The translations under genes and the position numbers were made by a program. 20,312 bases of DNA from a virus. Below, in pieces: positions 928 to 12,896 of the stretch; position 1 is the stretch's first letter, and every line of letters begins with the position of its first letter. Below the pieces are notes generated by a model. It was not told the origin of the DNA. It did no database searches and saw nothing but the letters and a program-made list of their open reading frames with translations. The stretch is taken from positions 1 to 20,312 of IMG/VR virus record IMGVR_UViG_3300029448_000576; one strand, 5' to 3'.

Positions 928-1359
928 TTACTTCCTAGTTAATGATCCACCAAAATATAGACCAATGATTGAAAATATTGTGTGTGATTGTAATGGGCCA
1001 ATAACAATTCCTGTCATAGGTTGCCATTTAGTTACATCATAATCACTAGCAAATATCCACCACCCTTCAGAAACTGTTTCTGTGTAACCCATATATATTG
1101 GTATATCTACAAAAATTGGAGCAACGATTGGTACTACAATAATGCTAAATACACACATTAAAGCTATCCATCTACGAGTATGCTTAGTATGTGCATCTTT
1201 AACATCACGAGCTTTGTCGGTTTGTTTTGCTGCAAATCCTGCTCGTTGCATTAATAACTTTTGTTTTTCAGCTTCAGCTTGTCCTTTCTGTGCCATAATA
1301 GACATTACACCACCTAGTACAGTAGAGCCAAGCATTGATATAAGTTCCATTGGTATCAT
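928..1359 (-). CDS. Holin-like membrane protein (143 aa)
   Basis: The product has a hydrophobic N-terminus (MELISMLGSTVLGGVMSIMA, 4-23), a charged helix rich in Lys/Gln/Ala (24-62), a clear membrane segment (WIALMCVFSIIVVPIVAPIF, 64-83), and a last hydrophobic stretch (HTIFSIIGLYFGGSL, about 126-140). Three segments around a cytoplasmic helix is the layout of three-helix holin types, including those annotated in gene-transfer agents. Related small membrane proteins lie at the end of structural modules of marine podoviruses in my memory. The AGGAAAG site, inside the last codons of the big protein, serves the ATG at 1359. No endolysin lies beside it, so lysis function is not proven. Confidence 0.8.
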   Translation of the reverse strand: MIPMELISMLGSTVLGGVMSIMAQKGQAEAEKQKLLMQRAGFAAKQTDKARDVKDAHTKHTRRWIALMCVFSIIVVPIVAPIFVDIPIYMGYTETVSEGWWIFASDYDVTKWQPMTGIVIGPLQSHTIFSIIGLYFGGSLTRK

Positions 1360-4300
1360 CTTTCTTTCCTAAGTTCTTTTAATTGATTTTTTATATAATC
1401 TTCTATTATTGCATTTTGCAAATTAATATTTGTAAAATAAGGACTATTAGATTTTTTAGCTGATCCAATAACAGAATCTGTTGTTGGATTTAAGGTTGGT
1501 ATAAATTTATTATTACTAATTATTGTAAATTTTTTTAATTGACTTTTAGCTTCTTTTAATGGATTTTTCATAGTTAAAGCATCATAAAAAACATTTCTTC
1601 CCATAAAATTAGATGTTGGTGTTATTCCTAATGCTTTATAATTGTCTAACACAGATTTAGCTTCTTGTTGAAATTCATAATCAGCTTTTATTGATTTAAA
1701 GTATGTATCATATACTTCTTGAGAATCAGTAATGGTAGGATTTTTAACAATATTATTAAATTGTAATCCTGAATCCCTCATATCTGTTCCTAATCTTTGC
1801 AAATCCCTTCTTAAATTAGCTGTTAAATCCATTCGTTTTTCACGAAGTCCGAATAGTTGCATAGCATCGTTTTCATTTATTGAATAACCATAAGGAGATA
1901 TACCATATTTATTTGGATATTTTCCTGTTTCAGGGTCTTTTACTAATTCTTGTTTTTCCATAGATGTTTCATAATGCCTTCTTTTGTTAAAAAATCTTTC
2001 TATATCAGGTGGAATAAATGCTTTTAGCCCAGTTGTGCCATAAAAACTTACTCTATCTTCAGCATCAGTAAGACCTCTTGGAGTACCAACCATTATGTCA
2101 TATATAGCTTCTGTAATAATACTTGGCCCTGCGTAAGGCCCTAGTGTTTCATCTGCTGCTGCTACCATCATTTTTATGTAATCAGCATCAGTTAAATTTT
2201 TATCAAAAGCTCCATTTGTTAAAGCATAACCATGCTTAAACATAGCTTTTACATATTGATATGGGTCTAGTGTTCCTAGGTTATAATAATCTATTCCGAC
2301 ATGACCATTAGTATCTACATTAATAGGCCCTGTAAAAACTTTAGGTGCTTTTTGTTCCCAAGGAGGAGATAAATTTGCTATTGCTTGTGCCATTTCTGCT
2401 GTTATATCATACAAGTTCATACTTGCGTCCATAGCCATTTCACCTGCTGTACCAGCAACCATTAAACCTGCTATTCTTTTTGCTCCTGCTTGGCGAACAA
2501 GAGATACCTGTTCTTCTGATAATTTTTTACCATATTTTTCTTCAATATTTTTTACTGTTTTCCCACTAACATCTTCGTATGCTCTTTTAAATCCGTTTTT
2601 GCTAGTTCTTAATATTTCTAAAGGCCATGCAACAAAGTTTCCTACAGGGTATTTTCTTAATTGTTTAAAAAATTCAGGTACTAAATTGTAATTAGGCATT
2701 GTATCTCTAGTTATATTAGCAGCATAATCATCTAAATCTTTACCTGTTAAACCAGTTGCTTTCCCATAAATTTTTTTCATTTCCTCAAAATGAATTATTT
2801 TAAATATGTCATCTTCAGCTTGATAAGTTTTATATAAACCTTTTATTCCTCTTGCTACAGGTTTTACACCACCAGTTCTTACTGTTTCTTTTGTAAGATT
2901 AGTTAAATCTTTTGCATAAGAATCGCCTGACTTTGTAATTTTTTTATTAAATTGATCTCCAATACCATATCTGTCTATATCTTGAAAAGATGCTTTAAGT
3001 TGTCCTATGTTTACATTAGAGCCTATAACTCCTTTTTCAATTAAACTTTTTAAATATTGAGTTGCTGCTTCATCTCCTCTTTCAAAAATATCAGCATATA
3101 ATGCTTTATAAGCATTTTTTAAATTTCTAGGTTTAAATATTGCTAAAGGTATTCCACTACCTGCCATCATTACAATATTACCATTAACATTTACTGTATG
3201 AGTTGTAGGGTTAAGAGCAGTTTTTGATGCTTGAGAAACTGCTTTAGTACCCATTATTAATTGACCTAAAATGTTAGTTTTTATAGCAGGACTAAACCCT
3301 TGTTCTATTGCGTTAATAATAAAAGGATCATTTGCATATAAATATTTTAAAGGGTTAGTGTAACCATCTTTTAAACCTGATGTATTTTTAATTCTTATAG
3401 CTGCTGCTTGTGCAAGACTTTTATCCATGCCTTCATCTAGTGCTTGTGCAGGTATAATCTCATCTCCTGTTGCAGGATTTATAGTTCTCCCTCCTCTTTG
3501 ATGAGGTTTAACTTCAACAGCATATCTTTTTCTTAACATTATTTCTCTTATCTCATCAAGAAATTTAAACTGTGCTGTAGTTTCTCCTAATTTTTCTATA
3601 GTTGTAAGGTAATTTTCAAAAGAACCTCTTTTTTCTCCATATAAATCTCTTAACCATTTTTTATCATCTAATTTTCTTTTTGTTTTAAGTTTGTTTTTAA
3701 CCAGGTTTGCATTAATTAATGTTTCAGTTATTTCTGCATTATTACCTGTATAATCAACTATTTGTCTTATAGCATTGGGTATATCTTCTGCTGCTACCCC
3801 TGCTTTCTTTAATTCTTTTTCTGCTGTTTGAAACATTTTATCAACTTCTTTATCTTCTAATGTTTTATTTAAATATTTTTCAGCATTTCCTTTTAAAACT
3901 TTTCTAAACTTAGGATCATCAAATATTTTATATGAACGAGTCAAATATGTTCCTTTGTTATCTCTAATTGTTTTGCCTAATTTAGAGCCTTTGGGCAAAT
4001 ATTTTTCTAAAGTTGTAGCATACTCATCTACTGTTGTACGCAATTTTAATAATCTTTCAGTAGTTTGTGGTGCTATTTTTTCTAATTCAGTAAGCCTTTT
4101 AGCATAAGCAGGGTCATTTATATTGTTAAATAAATCATCTAAATTTTTAGTGCCTTCTTTTGTACTAGGATCAAAAAGTTTATTATCTTTTAATTCTTTT
4201 TTAGATATAGCATCAAATTCATTGTTTTGTATTTTTATTTCTTTTAAAGTTGCTTCTGGCTCTTTGTCTGCTTTAATTAAAGCATTTCTTAATTCATCAT

Positions 4301-5330
4301 CTTCTATTCCTCTATAAGCAGAAAAATACTTTCCTTTGATTTGACTTGCTTTTTCTAAAGCTGGGTTAATTTTTGTTACATCTAAAACAGTTTGTACTAG
4401 TTTTGAGTTTTTTAATTTTGATGCTCCCTCGGAAACATTAGCCCATGTCATTCCAACAGCTTTAAAATTAGCTGCTAATGTAGCAGCAGCAGGAGTTCCT
4501 ACTGCTAAATTATTTAACCATGCGTTCATATATGCTTGTGCAGATGTATCGTTAGGTTCTACATATAGTTTTTCTAAAGCTGGTCTAGTTTCAGGAAATG
4601 AATCATATATAATATTAACCATATTTTCATCAGGATCATCTATAAAAGATGCAGCAGTATCTATATATAAGCCATCTTTCATAAACTTTGTAGTTTTATT
4701 TAAATTTAATATATCAAATTTTTGTTTAGGATTTATTGCTCTAAAACCACCTCCAATAACTTCTTTAACTCCTTTCCCACCAATTAAATAACTAGCTATT
4801 TTACCTACCATGTATTCAGCATCAGCAGATGATAAATCTCCACCTGTTGTTGTTATTCCTTCTCCATGATAAGGATCTAAAAAAGAACCTATATTTTGTT
4901 TAAAACTTACTGGTAATTTATCAAAAACTTGTTTATCTAAATTATATAAAGATTTTTGCATATTTTCAGGTAATAATGTTTCTAATCCTATTAAACCTAA
5001 ATCTATTATTCCTAAACCAATTTCTCCAGCAGTTCTGCTTAAAGTTCTTGTGTTAAATCCTAATAATCCTTCATCGCCAAATCTTAAATCTTCGCCTTTT
5101 TCGGTAAGCTCATAATATTGTTTAACAGCATTATCATATTCTTGTCTGTCTATATTATTTTCTATTAAGTATTGATTTCTTAAATCTTTATATAATTTTT
5201 TTTCTTCTTGATTCTTAGGACTATCAATCCCTAATTCTTCAAAGTCATTTAATATATTATGAAAAGATTGAGATTCTGCACTTAGTGCATAAAATTTACC
5301 ACCTTTACTTTTTCTTCCAATATCTGACAT
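1356..5330 (-). CDS. Very large internal virion / DNA-ejection protein
   Basis: At 1324 residues this is the largest gene of the window and the last of the presumed ejection set. It is mostly helical and Lys/Asn/Leu-rich with long charged helices (about 310-480). Hydrophobic or Gly/Ala-rich stretches include AGEIGLGIIDLGLIGLETLL (101-120), LAVGTPAAATLAANFKAVGM (275-294) and, further on, VMMAGSGIPLAIF and IAGLMVAGTAGEMAMDASM. A TAASFIDDPDENMVNIIYDS segment (225-244) followed by PETRPALEKL and PND resembles a module I recall in large internal proteins of marine podoviruses. I do not see a lytic transglycosylase or peptidase motif with confidence. The TGA overlaps the next ATG as ATGA. Confidence 0.85.
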   Translation of the reverse strand: MSDIGRKSKGGKFYALSAESQSFHNILNDFEELGIDSPKNQEEKKLYKDLRNQYLIENNIDRQEYDNAVKQYYELTEKGEDLRFGDEGLLGFNTRTLSRTAGEIGLGIIDLGLIGLETLLPENMQKSLYNLDKQVFDKLPVSFKQNIGSFLDPYHGEGITTTGGDLSSADAEYMVGKIASYLIGGKGVKEVIGGGFRAINPKQKFDILNLNKTTKFMKDGLYIDTAASFIDDPDENMVNIIYDSFPETRPALEKLYVEPNDTSAQAYMNAWLNNLAVGTPAAATLAANFKAVGMTWANVSEGASKLKNSKLVQTVLDVTKINPALEKASQIKGKYFSAYRGIEDDELRNALIKADKEPEATLKEIKIQNNEFDAISKKELKDNKLFDPSTKEGTKNLDDLFNNINDPAYAKRLTELEKIAPQTTERLLKLRTTVDEYATTLEKYLPKGSKLGKTIRDNKGTYLTRSYKIFDDPKFRKVLKGNAEKYLNKTLEDKEVDKMFQTAEKELKKAGVAAEDIPNAIRQIVDYTGNNAEITETLINANLVKNKLKTKRKLDDKKWLRDLYGEKRGSFENYLTTIEKLGETTAQFKFLDEIREIMLRKRYAVEVKPHQRGGRTINPATGDEIIPAQALDEGMDKSLAQAAAIRIKNTSGLKDGYTNPLKYLYANDPFIINAIEQGFSPAIKTNILGQLIMGTKAVSQASKTALNPTTHTVNVNGNIVMMAGSGIPLAIFKPRNLKNAYKALYADIFERGDEAATQYLKSLIEKGVIGSNVNIGQLKASFQDIDRYGIGDQFNKKITKSGDSYAKDLTNLTKETVRTGGVKPVARGIKGLYKTYQAEDDIFKIIHFEEMKKIYGKATGLTGKDLDDYAANITRDTMPNYNLVPEFFKQLRKYPVGNFVAWPLEILRTSKNGFKRAYEDVSGKTVKNIEEKYGKKLSEEQVSLVRQAGAKRIAGLMVAGTAGEMAMDASMNLYDITAEMAQAIANLSPPWEQKAPKVFTGPINVDTNGHVGIDYYNLGTLDPYQYVKAMFKHGYALTNGAFDKNLTDADYIKMMVAAADETLGPYAGPSIITEAIYDIMVGTPRGLTDAEDRVSFYGTTGLKAFIPPDIERFFNKRRHYETSMEKQELVKDPETGKYPNKYGISPYGYSINENDAMQLFGLREKRMDLTANLRRDLQRLGTDMRDSGLQFNNIVKNPTITDSQEVYDTYFKSIKADYEFQQEAKSVLDNYKALGITPTSNFMGRNVFYDALTMKNPLKEAKSQLKKFTIISNNKFIPTLNPTTDSVIGSAKKSNSPYFTNINLQNAIIEDYIKNQLKELRKER

Positions 5331-7927: not shown

Positions 7928-9478
7928 TTATCGTTCTCCTATTACCTCATATTCTATATCATATCCGTTTAATTCAAAAGTTGTAGCCGTTGTGTTTTGA
8001 AACTTAATAGCTATATATTTACCTGTGGCTCTAGCATCTACTTTATTTTGTGTATCAGGGTCTATAGTTTGTTGTGTCTTGTAAGTATATGTACCATCAG
8101 GAGTCATAGAACTTCCTACAAATACTTCAGCAGAACCTGTGCTAGAAAATCTTGGGGTAATCTTTCTTACTTGTTTTACAGTATTAGTATTGCCATCAAG
8201 AGTTAATCCTTTTCTTTCCAAAATCATAGTAAAATTATCTCCTGCAAAGTCAAATCCATTATCTCCTCTATAGAGTTTAGTATCTCCTGTGCTAGACATT
8301 AATATGCTAGTTTCTGTAGGATTATAGTTTCTTTGCCCCCAGTTCTCAGTAGTGCTATAAGCTACCCAACTTTGCGATTGTCCTGACCATACAACTGCTG
8401 ATGAACCAGGATTTACTATACCTGTTGCTATATGTAAAATATCAGGTAAATCTCTAAAACTAAATGAATTAGTTTTATGATTCCATATTAATGCTTTATT
8501 GCAATAAGTTGAGCCTACTGTTGGGTAAGATACCCATATTTCATTCTTTTGTTTATTATGTGTTACAAATATGTTTGCATAATTAGTACCATCTATTTCT
8601 TCAAATAATGTTCTTTTAATAACATTAGAAGCTACTGATTCTTTAGATACTCCGTTGTGGACTATTAAATCGCCATTAGTTACTACAAAATGTCTACCAT
8701 TAAATTCTGCTACACAGTTTCTTGATAAAACACCTGAGTCATCAAATAGTTTCTTAATATCGAATACTAGATTACCACCTGTAAAAGTCATAATATATGT
8801 GGTGTTTTCTTTATATATTATAAAAGATTGTTTAAGTGGAAATCCATCTACAATAAATTCACCTGCATCGCCTACTGTTGCTGAACCTGCATCGTTTGTA
8901 CTAGCTGCTGTCCAAGAACTAGGTAGTGTAAGGTTTTCTGCTGCATCTCCCCATCTAACCTTATTAGGTAGATTAGTAGAAGATTCAGTCATGTTTAAAG
9001 CTATTAAGTAATTACCAAAAGGTCTTATTACTTTACAAGTTGTGCTTGCTGGCCAATTAGTTAAATCTGTAAATGCACTAGCACCTGTGGTAGCTAAACA
9101 TTGTGGATCATCTACTCCATTGTTTAAAATAGCTAATCCGTTAAATATTCCACCTGTCCAATTACCTGAAGAGGTTAAGTTGGTAGAATAATCTCCACCT
9201 GATGCTCTTGTAAAATCTTCATGGCTAGAACCATTGTATCTGTATATTTTAGCTGAACCAGCATAAAACCAATAACTGTTAGCACCTGTAGTCCAGTTTA
9301 AAGCAAAATAAGGAGCTACTGTCGGTGTTCCAAAGACTTGATCTTGTCCTAATACTTTTTTAGCTGCATTATCTTCAAATCTTGCATTTTGTGTATGTGA
9401 AAAAAACTCATTAGGCAATACTGTGTTATTCGTATCTTTAATCATTCCTTTCGGATTTAATATTTGAAGGGTTGCCAT
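7928..9478 (-). CDS. Tail hub / nozzle-like protein
   Basis: I start the gene at the ATG at 9478, which overlaps the previous TAA (TAATG) and gives MATLQILNPKGMIKD; an upstream ATG at 9496 in the same frame lies inside the previous gene. The 516 residues are beta-rich with many Trp, Tyr and Asn. Features include ARFEDNAAKKVLGQD near the N-terminus, WFYAGSAKIYRYNGSS, FNGLAILNNGVDDPQ, then VIRPFGNYLIALN, and KALIWNHKTNSFSFRDLP in the second half. These blade-like segments are typical of the tail stabilisation/nozzle proteins of P22 gp10 and T7 gp12 type. It follows the fibres and precedes the ejection proteins, as in many podoviruses. Confidence 0.85.
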   Translation of the reverse strand: MATLQILNPKGMIKDTNNTVLPNEFFSHTQNARFEDNAAKKVLGQDQVFGTPTVAPYFALNWTTGANSYWFYAGSAKIYRYNGSSHEDFTRASGGDYSTNLTSSGNWTGGIFNGLAILNNGVDDPQCLATTGASAFTDLTNWPASTTCKVIRPFGNYLIALNMTESSTNLPNKVRWGDAAENLTLPSSWTAASTNDAGSATVGDAGEFIVDGFPLKQSFIIYKENTTYIMTFTGGNLVFDIKKLFDDSGVLSRNCVAEFNGRHFVVTNGDLIVHNGVSKESVASNVIKRTLFEEIDGTNYANIFVTHNKQKNEIWVSYPTVGSTYCNKALIWNHKTNSFSFRDLPDILHIATGIVNPGSSAVVWSGQSQSWVAYSTTENWGQRNYNPTETSILMSSTGDTKLYRGDNGFDFAGDNFTMILERKGLTLDGNTNTVKQVRKITPRFSSTGSAEVFVGSSMTPDGTYTYKTQQTIDPDTQNKVDARATGKYIAIKFQNTTATTFELNGYDIEYEVIGER

Positions 9479-10203
9479 TACGCAGTTCTTCTCCACATAT
9501 ATGCAACGATGTATGGTTGCAAGTTATTGTGTGCACCACCACCACCTGTAGCACCTGTTGTCATTGTTCTGCTTGGGTTAGTGTTATCACCTGCTGCTGG
9601 TAAATCTTGGTTTTCATCTTCACCATTTCCCATAAGGGTTGCTGTGTGAGTATGCGATGGTAATTCAGAAGTAGATAATGTATGCGTTTTAGCACCACCA
9701 GTTTCTTGTGCTGTATCAAAATCACTATCTGATGCATTTAAACCTACTATAACTCTACCTGCACCAAATGCTGCCCAAGTTCCAAAACCTAATAAAGTTG
9801 CAGGATTAGTTGATGAAGCTGCATTAATATAAATAGAACCTACAGGATATACAGCTTGTAAAGTTGCTGCTGTGTTAGAGCCTATAGTTATAGTTCCTGT
9901 GCAAGTTAAATTTCTCACACCTGTAATATCTATATTAGCATCTGCAGTTACTGCTTTTGATGCTTGTGCTGTACCCAATGTTGTAACATCTACATAATTT
10001 AATTCTGTTGTATTAGCTGTAACACCATCTAATAAATTTAATTCTGTGTGCGTAGAAGAAACTGCTCCACTAACACTAGGAAAAGTTGCTTTTACTGTTG
10101 ATTTTATCAATCTTAAATGATCATCTCCCTCATTAACTGGATCACCAGCTACTGGGTTTGAGCTATTTAAGTCCGATATATATGTTCCTGTTTCTAATCC
10201 CAT
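9478..10203 (-). CDS. Short tail fibre with Gp10-like/collar C-terminus
   Basis: The 241-residue protein begins MGLETGTYISDLNSSNPVAG with GDDHLRLIKSTVKATFPSV (27-45), an N-terminal module frequent in environmental phage fibres, probably for attachment. A short beta-repeat part follows (TELNLLDGVTANTTELNYVD). The C-terminal domain, about 117-241, has YPVGSIYI (119-126), a FGTWAAFGAGRVIVG stretch, an SHTHT metal-ligand-like motif (183-187) and NNLQPYIVAYMWRR (226-239). These are the landmarks of the T4 Gp10 C-terminal/tail-collar type domain found at fibre tips. AGGAGA precedes the ATG by eight bases. The stop overlaps the hub gene start as TAATG. Confidence 0.9.
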   Translation of the reverse strand: MGLETGTYISDLNSSNPVAGDPVNEGDDHLRLIKSTVKATFPSVSGAVSSTHTELNLLDGVTANTTELNYVDVTTLGTAQASKAVTADANIDITGVRNLTCTGTITIGSNTAATLQAVYPVGSIYINAASSTNPATLLGFGTWAAFGAGRVIVGLNASDSDFDTAQETGGAKTHTLSTSELPSHTHTATLMGNGEDENQDLPAAGDNTNPSRTMTTGATGGGGAHNNLQPYIVAYMWRRTA

Positions 10204-10490: not shown

Positions 10491-12896
10491 TTATGCTCTC
10501 AGAACTCCATAAACTGTTAAATTAATTTTATATGCACCATCTCCACCAGCAAATATTAATTGAAATCCATTGCAGGTGTTTGCAGATGTTCCGTTAATAT
10601 ATCCATGTCCTTGTGCAATCCTTGATGAACCATTGCTTCCTTCACAACCTATTTGATAAACAAAAGATGGTGAAACATTACCTTGTGAATCACTAGAATC
10701 TGAATCCCATCTACCACCATTGCCATTCATAAAATACATAAATCCGTTTAATGTATCATCTTGGCCACCTTTTTGTTGTTCAACAATAGTAAATTTATCT
10801 GCTGCATCTGTAGTAATTCTTTTTTCTGAATTGCTGTGTGTTAAACCTAAAGTGCTTTGTCTGTAATTAGATGCTGTAAGAGCAGAACCATCATCTAAAA
10901 ATCTCATTTGTAAATCACCATCATTATGCTGTGATATACCATGAATTAAAACTAAATAATTATCATAGGTAGAGTCGAATCCAGTAAAAGAATACGAAGT
11001 TGTATTACCTGATGAATTATAATTATTAACTGCACTTATGACTGCAAGACCGCCACCACCACCTGCTGCTGCTGCCCATTTAACACCAGTTGCTTCTGAT
11101 GAATCTGCTGTTAATATATGAGTGTTTGTACCTACAGCTAATGCTTGTGGATTACCACTACCATCGCCAATTAAAATCTTTCCTTTGGTAGATAAATCAA
11201 CTGCTGTAAGAGCAGATGTTCCATTACCAATAATAACTCCATTAGCTGTTAAGCTAGTTGCTCCAGTACCACCACTTCCAACAACAAGTGTTGATGATAG
11301 TCCTGCTGCTGTACCACTTGTATTCTGTGAACCTGCTGCATTTACACCTGGTAAATCTATATTACCTGTGCCATCAAAAGATACACCACCAATATTTCTT
11401 GCAGTTGCTAATGCTGTTGCTGTTGCTGCGTTTCCTGTGGTTGATCCTGATGTACCTGAAGTGTTACCTGTAACATTTCCTGTAATATCTCCAGCAAATC
11501 CTGTTGCAGTTAGAACTCCACTGCTTGAATTAAATGCTAAATTAGAACCTGACTTGGGTGGTAAATCTCCTGTAGCAGCAGTTACAAATAAAGGAAAACA
11601 GGTTGTATCACTGCTTTCATCTGCAACTGTAACATTTGTAGATGTGGTAGCTGTAGCACTGTTTCCAGTACAGCTTCCTGCACTTCCACTAGCATTTCCT
11701 GTTACGTTTCCTGTTATATCACCTGCAAAGCCAGTAGCTGTTAAGACTCCTGAACTAGAATTAAAAGCAAGATTGCTTCCTGATTTAGGTGGAAGATCGC
11801 CTGTTGCTGCTGTAACAAATAATGGGAAGCAAGTAGTATCTGAAGATTCATCTGCAACTGTTACGTTTGTAGAAAGAGTTGCTGTAGCTGAGTTACCAGT
11901 ACAAGAACCTGAGCTACCCGATGCGTTTCCAGTTACATTACCTGTAAGTGGCCCACTAAAACCTGTAGCTGTTAATAATCCACTTGATGAATTAAATGCT
12001 AAGTTACTTCCAGTTTTAGGCCCTAAATCTCCAGTTGCTGCTGTTACGAATAAAGGAAAACAAGTAGTGTCTGATGACTCATCTGCTACTGTAATATCCG
12101 TAGGAGTTGCTGCTGTTACTGCTGCCCATTTTATACCTGTTCCTTCGCTGCTATCAGCAGTTAGTACATGATTATTAGAACCTACTGCCAAAGCTGATGG
12201 GTTGCCTGAACCATCTCCTATTAATAGTTTTCCTTTAGTCGATAAATCTACAGCAGTAACTGCTGAAGTGCCATTACCTATTAACACACCATTAGCTGTT
12301 AAAGATGATGCTCCTGTTCCACCATGAGCTACTCCTATGTCTGTAGCTTCCCAAGTTCCTGATGATATAGTTCCTGTTGTAACGATTGAGCTAGAACCAG
12401 CTACTGGAGAAAAATAAGTTTTCATGGTATCCATTCCAACTTTCTTTAAAGTTCCAGCATCTGAATATAGTAATTCATCTGCATCTGCTAAACCTGATGA
12501 AATTTCAGTTTGTCCTGAAATAACATTATCATTTAACATACTGCCTTCTACAGCATCTGCTTGTATGGTTGCAGCACCATTGGTTGCTATAGCTATATCG
12601 CCTGATATAACTACAGGGTTAAAATTCGTTCCATCGGCTATTAATGCAGCACCACTTGTATTTGTTCCCATAAACAGATCATCGCCTGTTATGGTTAAAT
12701 CTCCCCCAATGGTTGCATTGCCTGTTGTTGTTAAAGTGCTTGAAGATGTAATACTTGTTGCTGTAACTGCTGGTAAATTAGCTGCCACATTAGCTAAAGT
12801 AACTCCAAAGTTAGAACCACTATATGCTATTGCAAATATAGAAGCACTGTTAGGGCTTGTTGTCGTTGTTAATTCTGATAATTTTTTAGTTGCCAT
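10491..12896 (-). CDS. Long tail fibre with tandem repeats
   Basis: The 801-residue protein is Gly/Ser/Thr/Ala/Asn-rich. It starts MATKKLSELTT, and residues about 1-60 are likely the virion attachment end. The shaft contains a 68-residue unit (192-259), three tandem 77-residue units (267-343, 344-420, 421-497), and a second copy of the 68-residue unit (542-609). Each 77-residue unit has VADESSDTTCFPLFVTAATG, then SNLAFNSSSG and ATGF. After a five-Gly hinge (612-616) comes a different C-terminal domain of about 185 residues with aromatic and charged residues, probably the receptor-binding tip. The GGTGASSLTANGVLIGNGTSA-type motif recurs in environmental phage fibres. Two further parts of the tail, the small fibre and the hub, follow downstream. 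Trimer formation is assumed, not shown. Confidence 0.9.
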   Translation of the reverse strand: MATKKLSELTTTTSPNSASIFAIAYSGSNFGVTLANVAANLPAVTATSITSSSTLTTTGNATIGGDLTITGDDLFMGTNTSGAALIADGTNFNPVVISGDIAIATNGAATIQADAVEGSMLNDNVISGQTEISSGLADADELLYSDAGTLKKVGMDTMKTYFSPVAGSSSIVTTGTISSGTWEATDIGVAHGGTGASSLTANGVLIGNGTSAVTAVDLSTKGKLLIGDGSGNPSALAVGSNNHVLTADSSEGTGIKWAAVTAATPTDITVADESSDTTCFPLFVTAATGDLGPKTGSNLAFNSSSGLLTATGFSGPLTGNVTGNASGSSGSCTGNSATATLSTNVTVADESSDTTCFPLFVTAATGDLPPKSGSNLAFNSSSGVLTATGFAGDITGNVTGNASGSAGSCTGNSATATTSTNVTVADESSDTTCFPLFVTAATGDLPPKSGSNLAFNSSSGVLTATGFAGDITGNVTGNTSGTSGSTTGNAATATALATARNIGGVSFDGTGNIDLPGVNAAGSQNTSGTAAGLSSTLVVGSGGTGATSLTANGVIIGNGTSALTAVDLSTKGKILIGDGSGNPQALAVGTNTHILTADSSEATGVKWAAAAGGGGGLAVISAVNNYNSSGNTTSYSFTGFDSTYDNYLVLIHGISQHNDGDLQMRFLDDGSALTASNYRQSTLGLTHSNSEKRITTDAADKFTIVEQQKGGQDDTLNGFMYFMNGNGGRWDSDSSDSQGNVSPSFVYQIGCEGSNGSSRIAQGHGYINGTSANTCNGFQLIFAGGDGAYKINLTVYGVLRA
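11070..11273 (-). repeat. 68-residue fibre unit, second copy
   Basis: Codes for residues 542-609, from GGTGATSLTANGVIIGNG to EATGVKWAA. It differs from the first copy by mostly conservative changes (for example V/I, S/T, S/Q, N/T) and leads into the Gly hinge before the tip domain. Confidence 0.85.
11406..11636 (-). repeat. 77-residue fibre repeat, copy C
   Basis: Codes for residues 421-497. It is identical to copy B at protein level for 58 residues, then changes to NTSGTSGSTTGNAATATALA, so the second Cys of the unit is replaced by Thr. It leads into a unique linker RNIGGVSFDGTGNIDLPGVN. Confidence 0.9.
11637..11867 (-). repeat. 77-residue fibre repeat, copy B
   Basis: Codes for residues 344-420. 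Its first 58 residues (NVTVADESS to GNVTGN) are identical in copy C, yet most codons differ. It keeps both Cys (TTCFPLF and SCTGNS). Confidence 0.9.
11868..12098 (-). repeat. 77-residue fibre repeat, copy A
   Basis: Codes for fibre residues 267-343. It is the most diverged of three tandem units: DITVADESS at its start, GPKTGS for PPKSGS, GLLTATGFSGPLTG for GVLTATGFAGDITG. It retains TTCFPLF and SGSCTGNS, with the two Cys of the unit. The period is exactly 231 bases. Confidence 0.9.
12120..12323 (-). repeat. 68-residue fibre unit, first copy
   Basis: Codes for residues 192-259, from GGTGASSLTANGVLIGNG to EGTGIKWAA. It closely matches residues 542-609 on the far side of the triple repeat, so the tandem block is bracketed by two copies. 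Confidence 0.85.

Follow-up and report, generated by a model that had tools for sequence, protein, structure and literature searches.

Age and protein constraint account for most of the synonymous recoding between tandem repeat units of a phage tail fibre gene

Two neighbouring repeat units of a marine phage tail fibre gene, B and C, were found to encode nearly the same protein with largely different codons. Age and protein constraint account for most of this recoding. It probably reflects two old unit lineages whose protein has been held constant, combined with survivorship after deletion of pairs that were similar in DNA.

Results and Discussion

Repeat units of the fibre gene

The window, that is, the whole stretch of viral DNA that was analysed (20,312 nt), contains a tail fibre gene at positions 10491–12896 on the minus strand. 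This ORF encodes a protein of 801 aa that begins with MATKKLSELTTTTSPNSASIF, contains three 77-aa units in tandem and significantly matched the tail-fibre profiles phrog_6722 (E 4.9e-18) and phrog_6942 (E 7.1e-17). Units A, B and C are located at positions 11868–12098 (aa 267–343), 11637–11867 (aa 344–420) and 11406–11636 (aa 421–497), respectively, all on the minus strand. The interval 11406–11867, in which a sequence-only reading had reported recoded repeats, corresponds exactly to units B and C.

Residues 1–58 of the unit were identical in B and C (58/58), and 37 of these 58 codons differed. The codon table confirmed what had been read from the sequence, namely, identity over 58 residues with about 32 of 50 codons differing: between T343–G392 and T420–G469, 32/50 codons differed, and several serine codons had switched between boxes (TCT/AGC, AGC/TCT, TCA/AGT and AGT/TCA). 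Over the whole unit, 69/77 residues were identical, with different codons at 44 of these 69. The DNA identity was 68.8% over all 77 residues and about 73% across the identical block. Synonymous sites were saturated, the Nei-Gojobori (NG86) dS being 2.9 when all 77 residues were included and undefined when only the identical block was, and this result leaves standing the proposal that DNA unable to recombine had been selected. Units A and B shared 67/77 residues, and codons differed at 36 of those.

The same fibre was present in three further metagenome contigs (L001, L002 and L003), which differed from the window at 5, 9 and 13 nt of 2403, respectively; since four contigs carried it, the recoding was not an assembly accident. 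Units B and C, which make up 19% of the gene, contained 3/5, 5/9 and 7/13 of these differences, and all those in B and C were synonymous.

The same fibre gene harbours a second, non-tandem repeat (GGTGA..LTANG), which is likewise fully recoded. Its upstream segment D (GGTGASSLTANG...) is located at 12113–12324 and its downstream segment E (GGTGATSLTANG...), 350 aa further on, at 11063–11274, both on the minus strand. The DNA identity in this repeat family was 73%, and 31/58 shared codons differed, compared with a null expectation of 28.6.

An antisense ORF of 349 codons (11122–12171, plus strand) overlies the repeats. It was rejected as a cause of the recoding, as synonymous shuffles kept equally long frames (mean 354, P = 0.52). 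Because these shuffles left the frame open, its length is explained by the composition of the fibre gene. AlphaFold2 prediction for the region of B and C gave a mean pLDDT of 33 and no usable model.

Age and lineages of the copies

Related fibres were gathered from the virus contigs of IMG/VR. Among 11 non-redundant B–C tandems (16 in a further comparison), B grouped with B and C with C within a clade. The codon difference between B and C was approximately 0.57 whichever genomes were paired, whereas B–B or C–C differences within the clade of the window were approximately 0.02–0.34. Between clades, B orthologues had a dS of 1.57 and a dN of 0.037, and C orthologues had a dS of 1.01 and a dN of 0.016. 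This combination of low dN and high dS points to strong protein constraint on each copy. In relatives, a few tolerated positions distinguished B from C (A/P/G, V/I, V/T and S/T), and the two copies were 89–100% identical; the window, with 58/58, lies at the upper end of this range, and its identity is not a frozen state.

The order of B and C and their spacing of 77 residues were kept in two clades. Judging from these comparisons, B and C were already separate before the fibre family divided into the two clades. Among near-identical fibres, no tracts of gene conversion between B and C were found, and the differences were isolated synonymous changes. These findings support the earlier suggestion of a very old divergence under strict protein constraint, with saturated dS and separate B and C lineages throughout the family, although the duplication that it assumed is not established.

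Indeed, B and C might have been brought together by modular exchange, as divergent copies imported from different phages, instead of arising by duplication within the gene. Single units of some other fibres were closer in DNA to B or C (80–88%) than the two neighbours were to each other: the identity was 83% between B and a unit of L124 and 88% between C and a unit of L053, compared with about 73% between B and C in the identical block. In addition, unit layouts varied widely among the fibres, and the second unit of L109 appeared to consist of a C-like first half joined to another unit type. However, the order and spacing common to both clades mean that any import must be older than both of them, and the direction of transfer cannot be read at saturation. 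A pairwise mosaic scan of the units yielded mostly small gains, whose meaning is difficult to judge when sites are saturated. Import from different phages is a reasonable but somewhat doubtful account of the pair. At the level of the sequences, duplication within the gene and separate import appear equally possible as its origin. Import is compatible with the explanation by old lineages and survivorship, since it addresses only the way in which the pair arose.

Loss of a unit by recombination between copies

The number of units in the fibre family ranged from 1 to 3, and it was not fixed even among close relatives. The L026 fibre (3381–5309) had one unit fewer than that of L010, from which it differed by a single exact gap of 231 nt, with the flanking fibre DNA mostly 90–100% identical. 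The remaining unit of L026 was B at its start and C at its end. It had 8 mismatches to a chimera of L010 B and C, compared with 40 when aligned to B alone and 45 when aligned to C alone. The crossover was located at nt 147–161 of the unit, inside the 14-nt tract that is the longest identity between B and C of L010. Apparently, in this one contig, a unit was lost by recombination between B and C at the 14-nt shared tract.

Because recoded copies still recombined in L026 and the number of units varies, recoding does not secure fibre length. The idea that it protects this length is therefore not supported, L026 having lost exactly one unit despite the recoding. The variation in copy number also weakens the proposal of selection against recombination.

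Taken together with the lineage data, these observations suggest the following course of events. B and C would represent two old DNA lineages of one unit, which were inherited separately and were adjacent before the known family members diverged. Purifying selection would confine the unit protein to a narrow set of residues while synonymous sites drift to saturation, as seen in the orthologue comparisons. Each copy would follow its own lineage with no homogenisation, as in the family members that were examined side by side. Recombination between copies through short residual identity would delete a unit, as apparently happened in L026. Such deletion would clear DNA-similar pairs faster than recoded ones, and the survivors would be enriched for recoded pairs, a step for which the statistical support is modest. 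A special recoding mechanism would not be required.

Comparison with random synonymous recoding

The DNA of B and C was compared with random synonymous recoding. When each copy's codon counts were preserved in the shuffle, B and C differed at 44 codons compared with 35.5 +/- 3.2 expected (P = 0.005), and over the first 58 residues they differed at 37 codons compared with 30.2 +/- 2.9 expected (P = 0.009). When random recoding drew on the codon use of the gene itself, 34.5 +/- 3.9 differing codons were expected in place of the 44 observed (P = 0.009). Unlike codon usage of the two copies was rejected as the source of the excess (G = 24.9, 19 df), which survived the shuffle that preserved the counts of each copy. 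The differences between A and B and between A and C were equal to the random expectation, and the excess in B–C, as one chosen pair of three, is a hint. Age alone would not lead one to expect this divergence slightly beyond random recoding in the window. It is plausible, and testable, that similarity in DNA has been further opposed, through either survivorship after unit deletion or codon selection.

The longest tract shared by B and C in the window was not shortened (15 nt compared with 17.7 expected, P = 0.39). For 24 repeat pairs, among which two antisense frames of the window are to be discounted, the strict shuffle gave a combined Stouffer z of 1.85 for excess difference, and shared tracts were not clearly shortened (Stouffer -1.28). 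In L039, a repeat with an offset of 195 aa differed more than expected (P = 0.009) and also had fewer tracts in common (P = 0.003). Two related fibres, L044:3083-5356 and L005:5001-7619, contain other long repeats (offsets of 195 and 114 aa, respectively), which are likewise recoded.

Divergence within genes and across genomes

In MATKK-type fibres, all 13 within-gene pairs with at least 85% protein identity were at or above synonymous saturation when evaluated with their own codon use (observed/expected ratio of at least 1.07), whereas different-slot pairs across genomes had an average ratio of 0.98, and 22% of them were below 0.85. With pooled codon use, the ratio was 1.13 within genes and 0.96 across genomes. 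Overall, the observed/expected synonymous difference in these fibres was 1.13–1.21 for within-gene pairs and 0.96–0.98 for different-slot cross-genome pairs. In quartet tests with slots fixed, the within-genome B–C difference exceeded the cross-clade one (P = 0.018); for D–E, the within-genome difference exceeded the cross-genome one (P = 0.05). Gene-label permutations yielded P = 0.014 for B–C, 0.005 for first–B and 0.012 for first–C. An event-level test of the within-gene excess with pooled codon usage yielded P from 0.003 to 0.05. These values suggest a tendency for copies within one gene to be more divergent than the corresponding slots compared across genomes, in the few independent lineages available. 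Because few deep lineages are common to all these tests, they do not constitute independent proof.

It may be that selection acts directly on synonymous sites, with variants that raise the DNA similarity of B and C being disfavoured since they increase the rate of unit deletion. The excess in the window, the quartet and permutation results and the L039 repeat are in line with this, and the deletion hazard is real, as L026 demonstrates. However, the independent lineages are few, the event-level P values and the combined z are modest, and the shared tracts in the window are not clearly shortened. Moreover, other marine phage fibres from metagenomes that use the same NVTGN-type unit often keep DNA-similar copies, unlike the window (L069, in which only 3/57 codons differ, L194, L075, L382 and L062); therefore, avoidance of similarity is not universal. 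Active selection of this kind is considered rather unlikely. Consequently, of the earlier claim of selection for non-recombining DNA, the comparison with random synonymous recoding bore out a modest excess, which is also seen within genes, whereas the unshortened tracts and the similar copies kept by sister fibre families speak against it, and such selection is only suggested.

Ascertainment was considered as another source of the pattern, in that short-read assembly might lose or collapse DNA-similar tandem copies and leave recoded ones visible. Repeats that exceed the k-mer length, usually 21–96, are indeed collapsed by assemblers (PMC6868369), and the sequences used here are IMG/VR virus contigs. 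However, copies with shared tracts of 63–92 nt were assembled in L069, L075 and L194 of the same collection, and four assemblies agree on the fibre of the window. Furthermore, ratios above 1 would not be expected from such a loss, as pairs near a ratio of 1.0 typically share only about 11–14 nt, well below 21. This explanation is very improbable.

The stronger form of the selection idea is a tentative one with the odds against it: synonymous sites of the fibre repeat copies would be selected to stay different, as 14-nt tracts suffice for unit-deleting recombination, and this would be a natural case of repeat recoding with within-gene divergence above neutral saturation. If this were true, repeat recombination within a gene would be powerful enough to influence which codons a phage uses, and the repeats would provide a natural measure of the minimal homology needed for such recombination. 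The deletion at the 14-nt tract makes the question of minimal homology directly testable. If the selection is not real, the fibre still shows a unit protein that is strictly held while its DNA saturates. The recoded fibre repeats belong to a known kind; they are an instructive example and offer one evolutionary hint that can be tested.

Related systems and neighbouring genes

Selection for stable sequences is known to influence which synonymous codons are used (Ackermann and Chao 2006, PMC1378130). The likeness lies in synonymous codon use that lowers repeat-driven instability; however, that effect was shown genome-wide for mononucleotide repeats, whereas the present question is about a single fibre family with tandem protein repeats of 231 bp, for which the statistics are only suggestive. 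The engineered TReSR repeats (PMC10096509) also encode identical protein units with different synonymous codons, but they were designed for PCR, whereas the repeats of the window are natural and largely explained by age. In the open-access literature, no description of phage fibre repeats recoded in nature was found.

A related unit (VADESSDTTCFPLF...NVTGN; phrog_6942 / phrog_6722) with tail fibre annotation occurs in marine phages, including the Synechococcus phages S-CAM9 and S-SSM7, but the isolate matches were only 35–41% identical. The nearest relative found among sequenced isolates was Pelagibacter phage HTVC106P (identities of 40% for the portal and 48% for the capsid), which was absent from the fibre matches; the portal was 37% identical to that of LUZ24, of the LUZ24-like podoviruses. 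A single scan of bacterial and archaeal genomes yielded one match, a weak one to a Prochlorococcus assembly.

Elsewhere in the window, a 1324-aa ORF with no PHROG match (1356–5330, minus strand) possibly encodes an internal virion protein. The gene adjoining the fibre gene (9478–10203, minus strand) encodes a protein with a Gp10_C domain (PF21939), which is likely a further tail or receptor-binding part.
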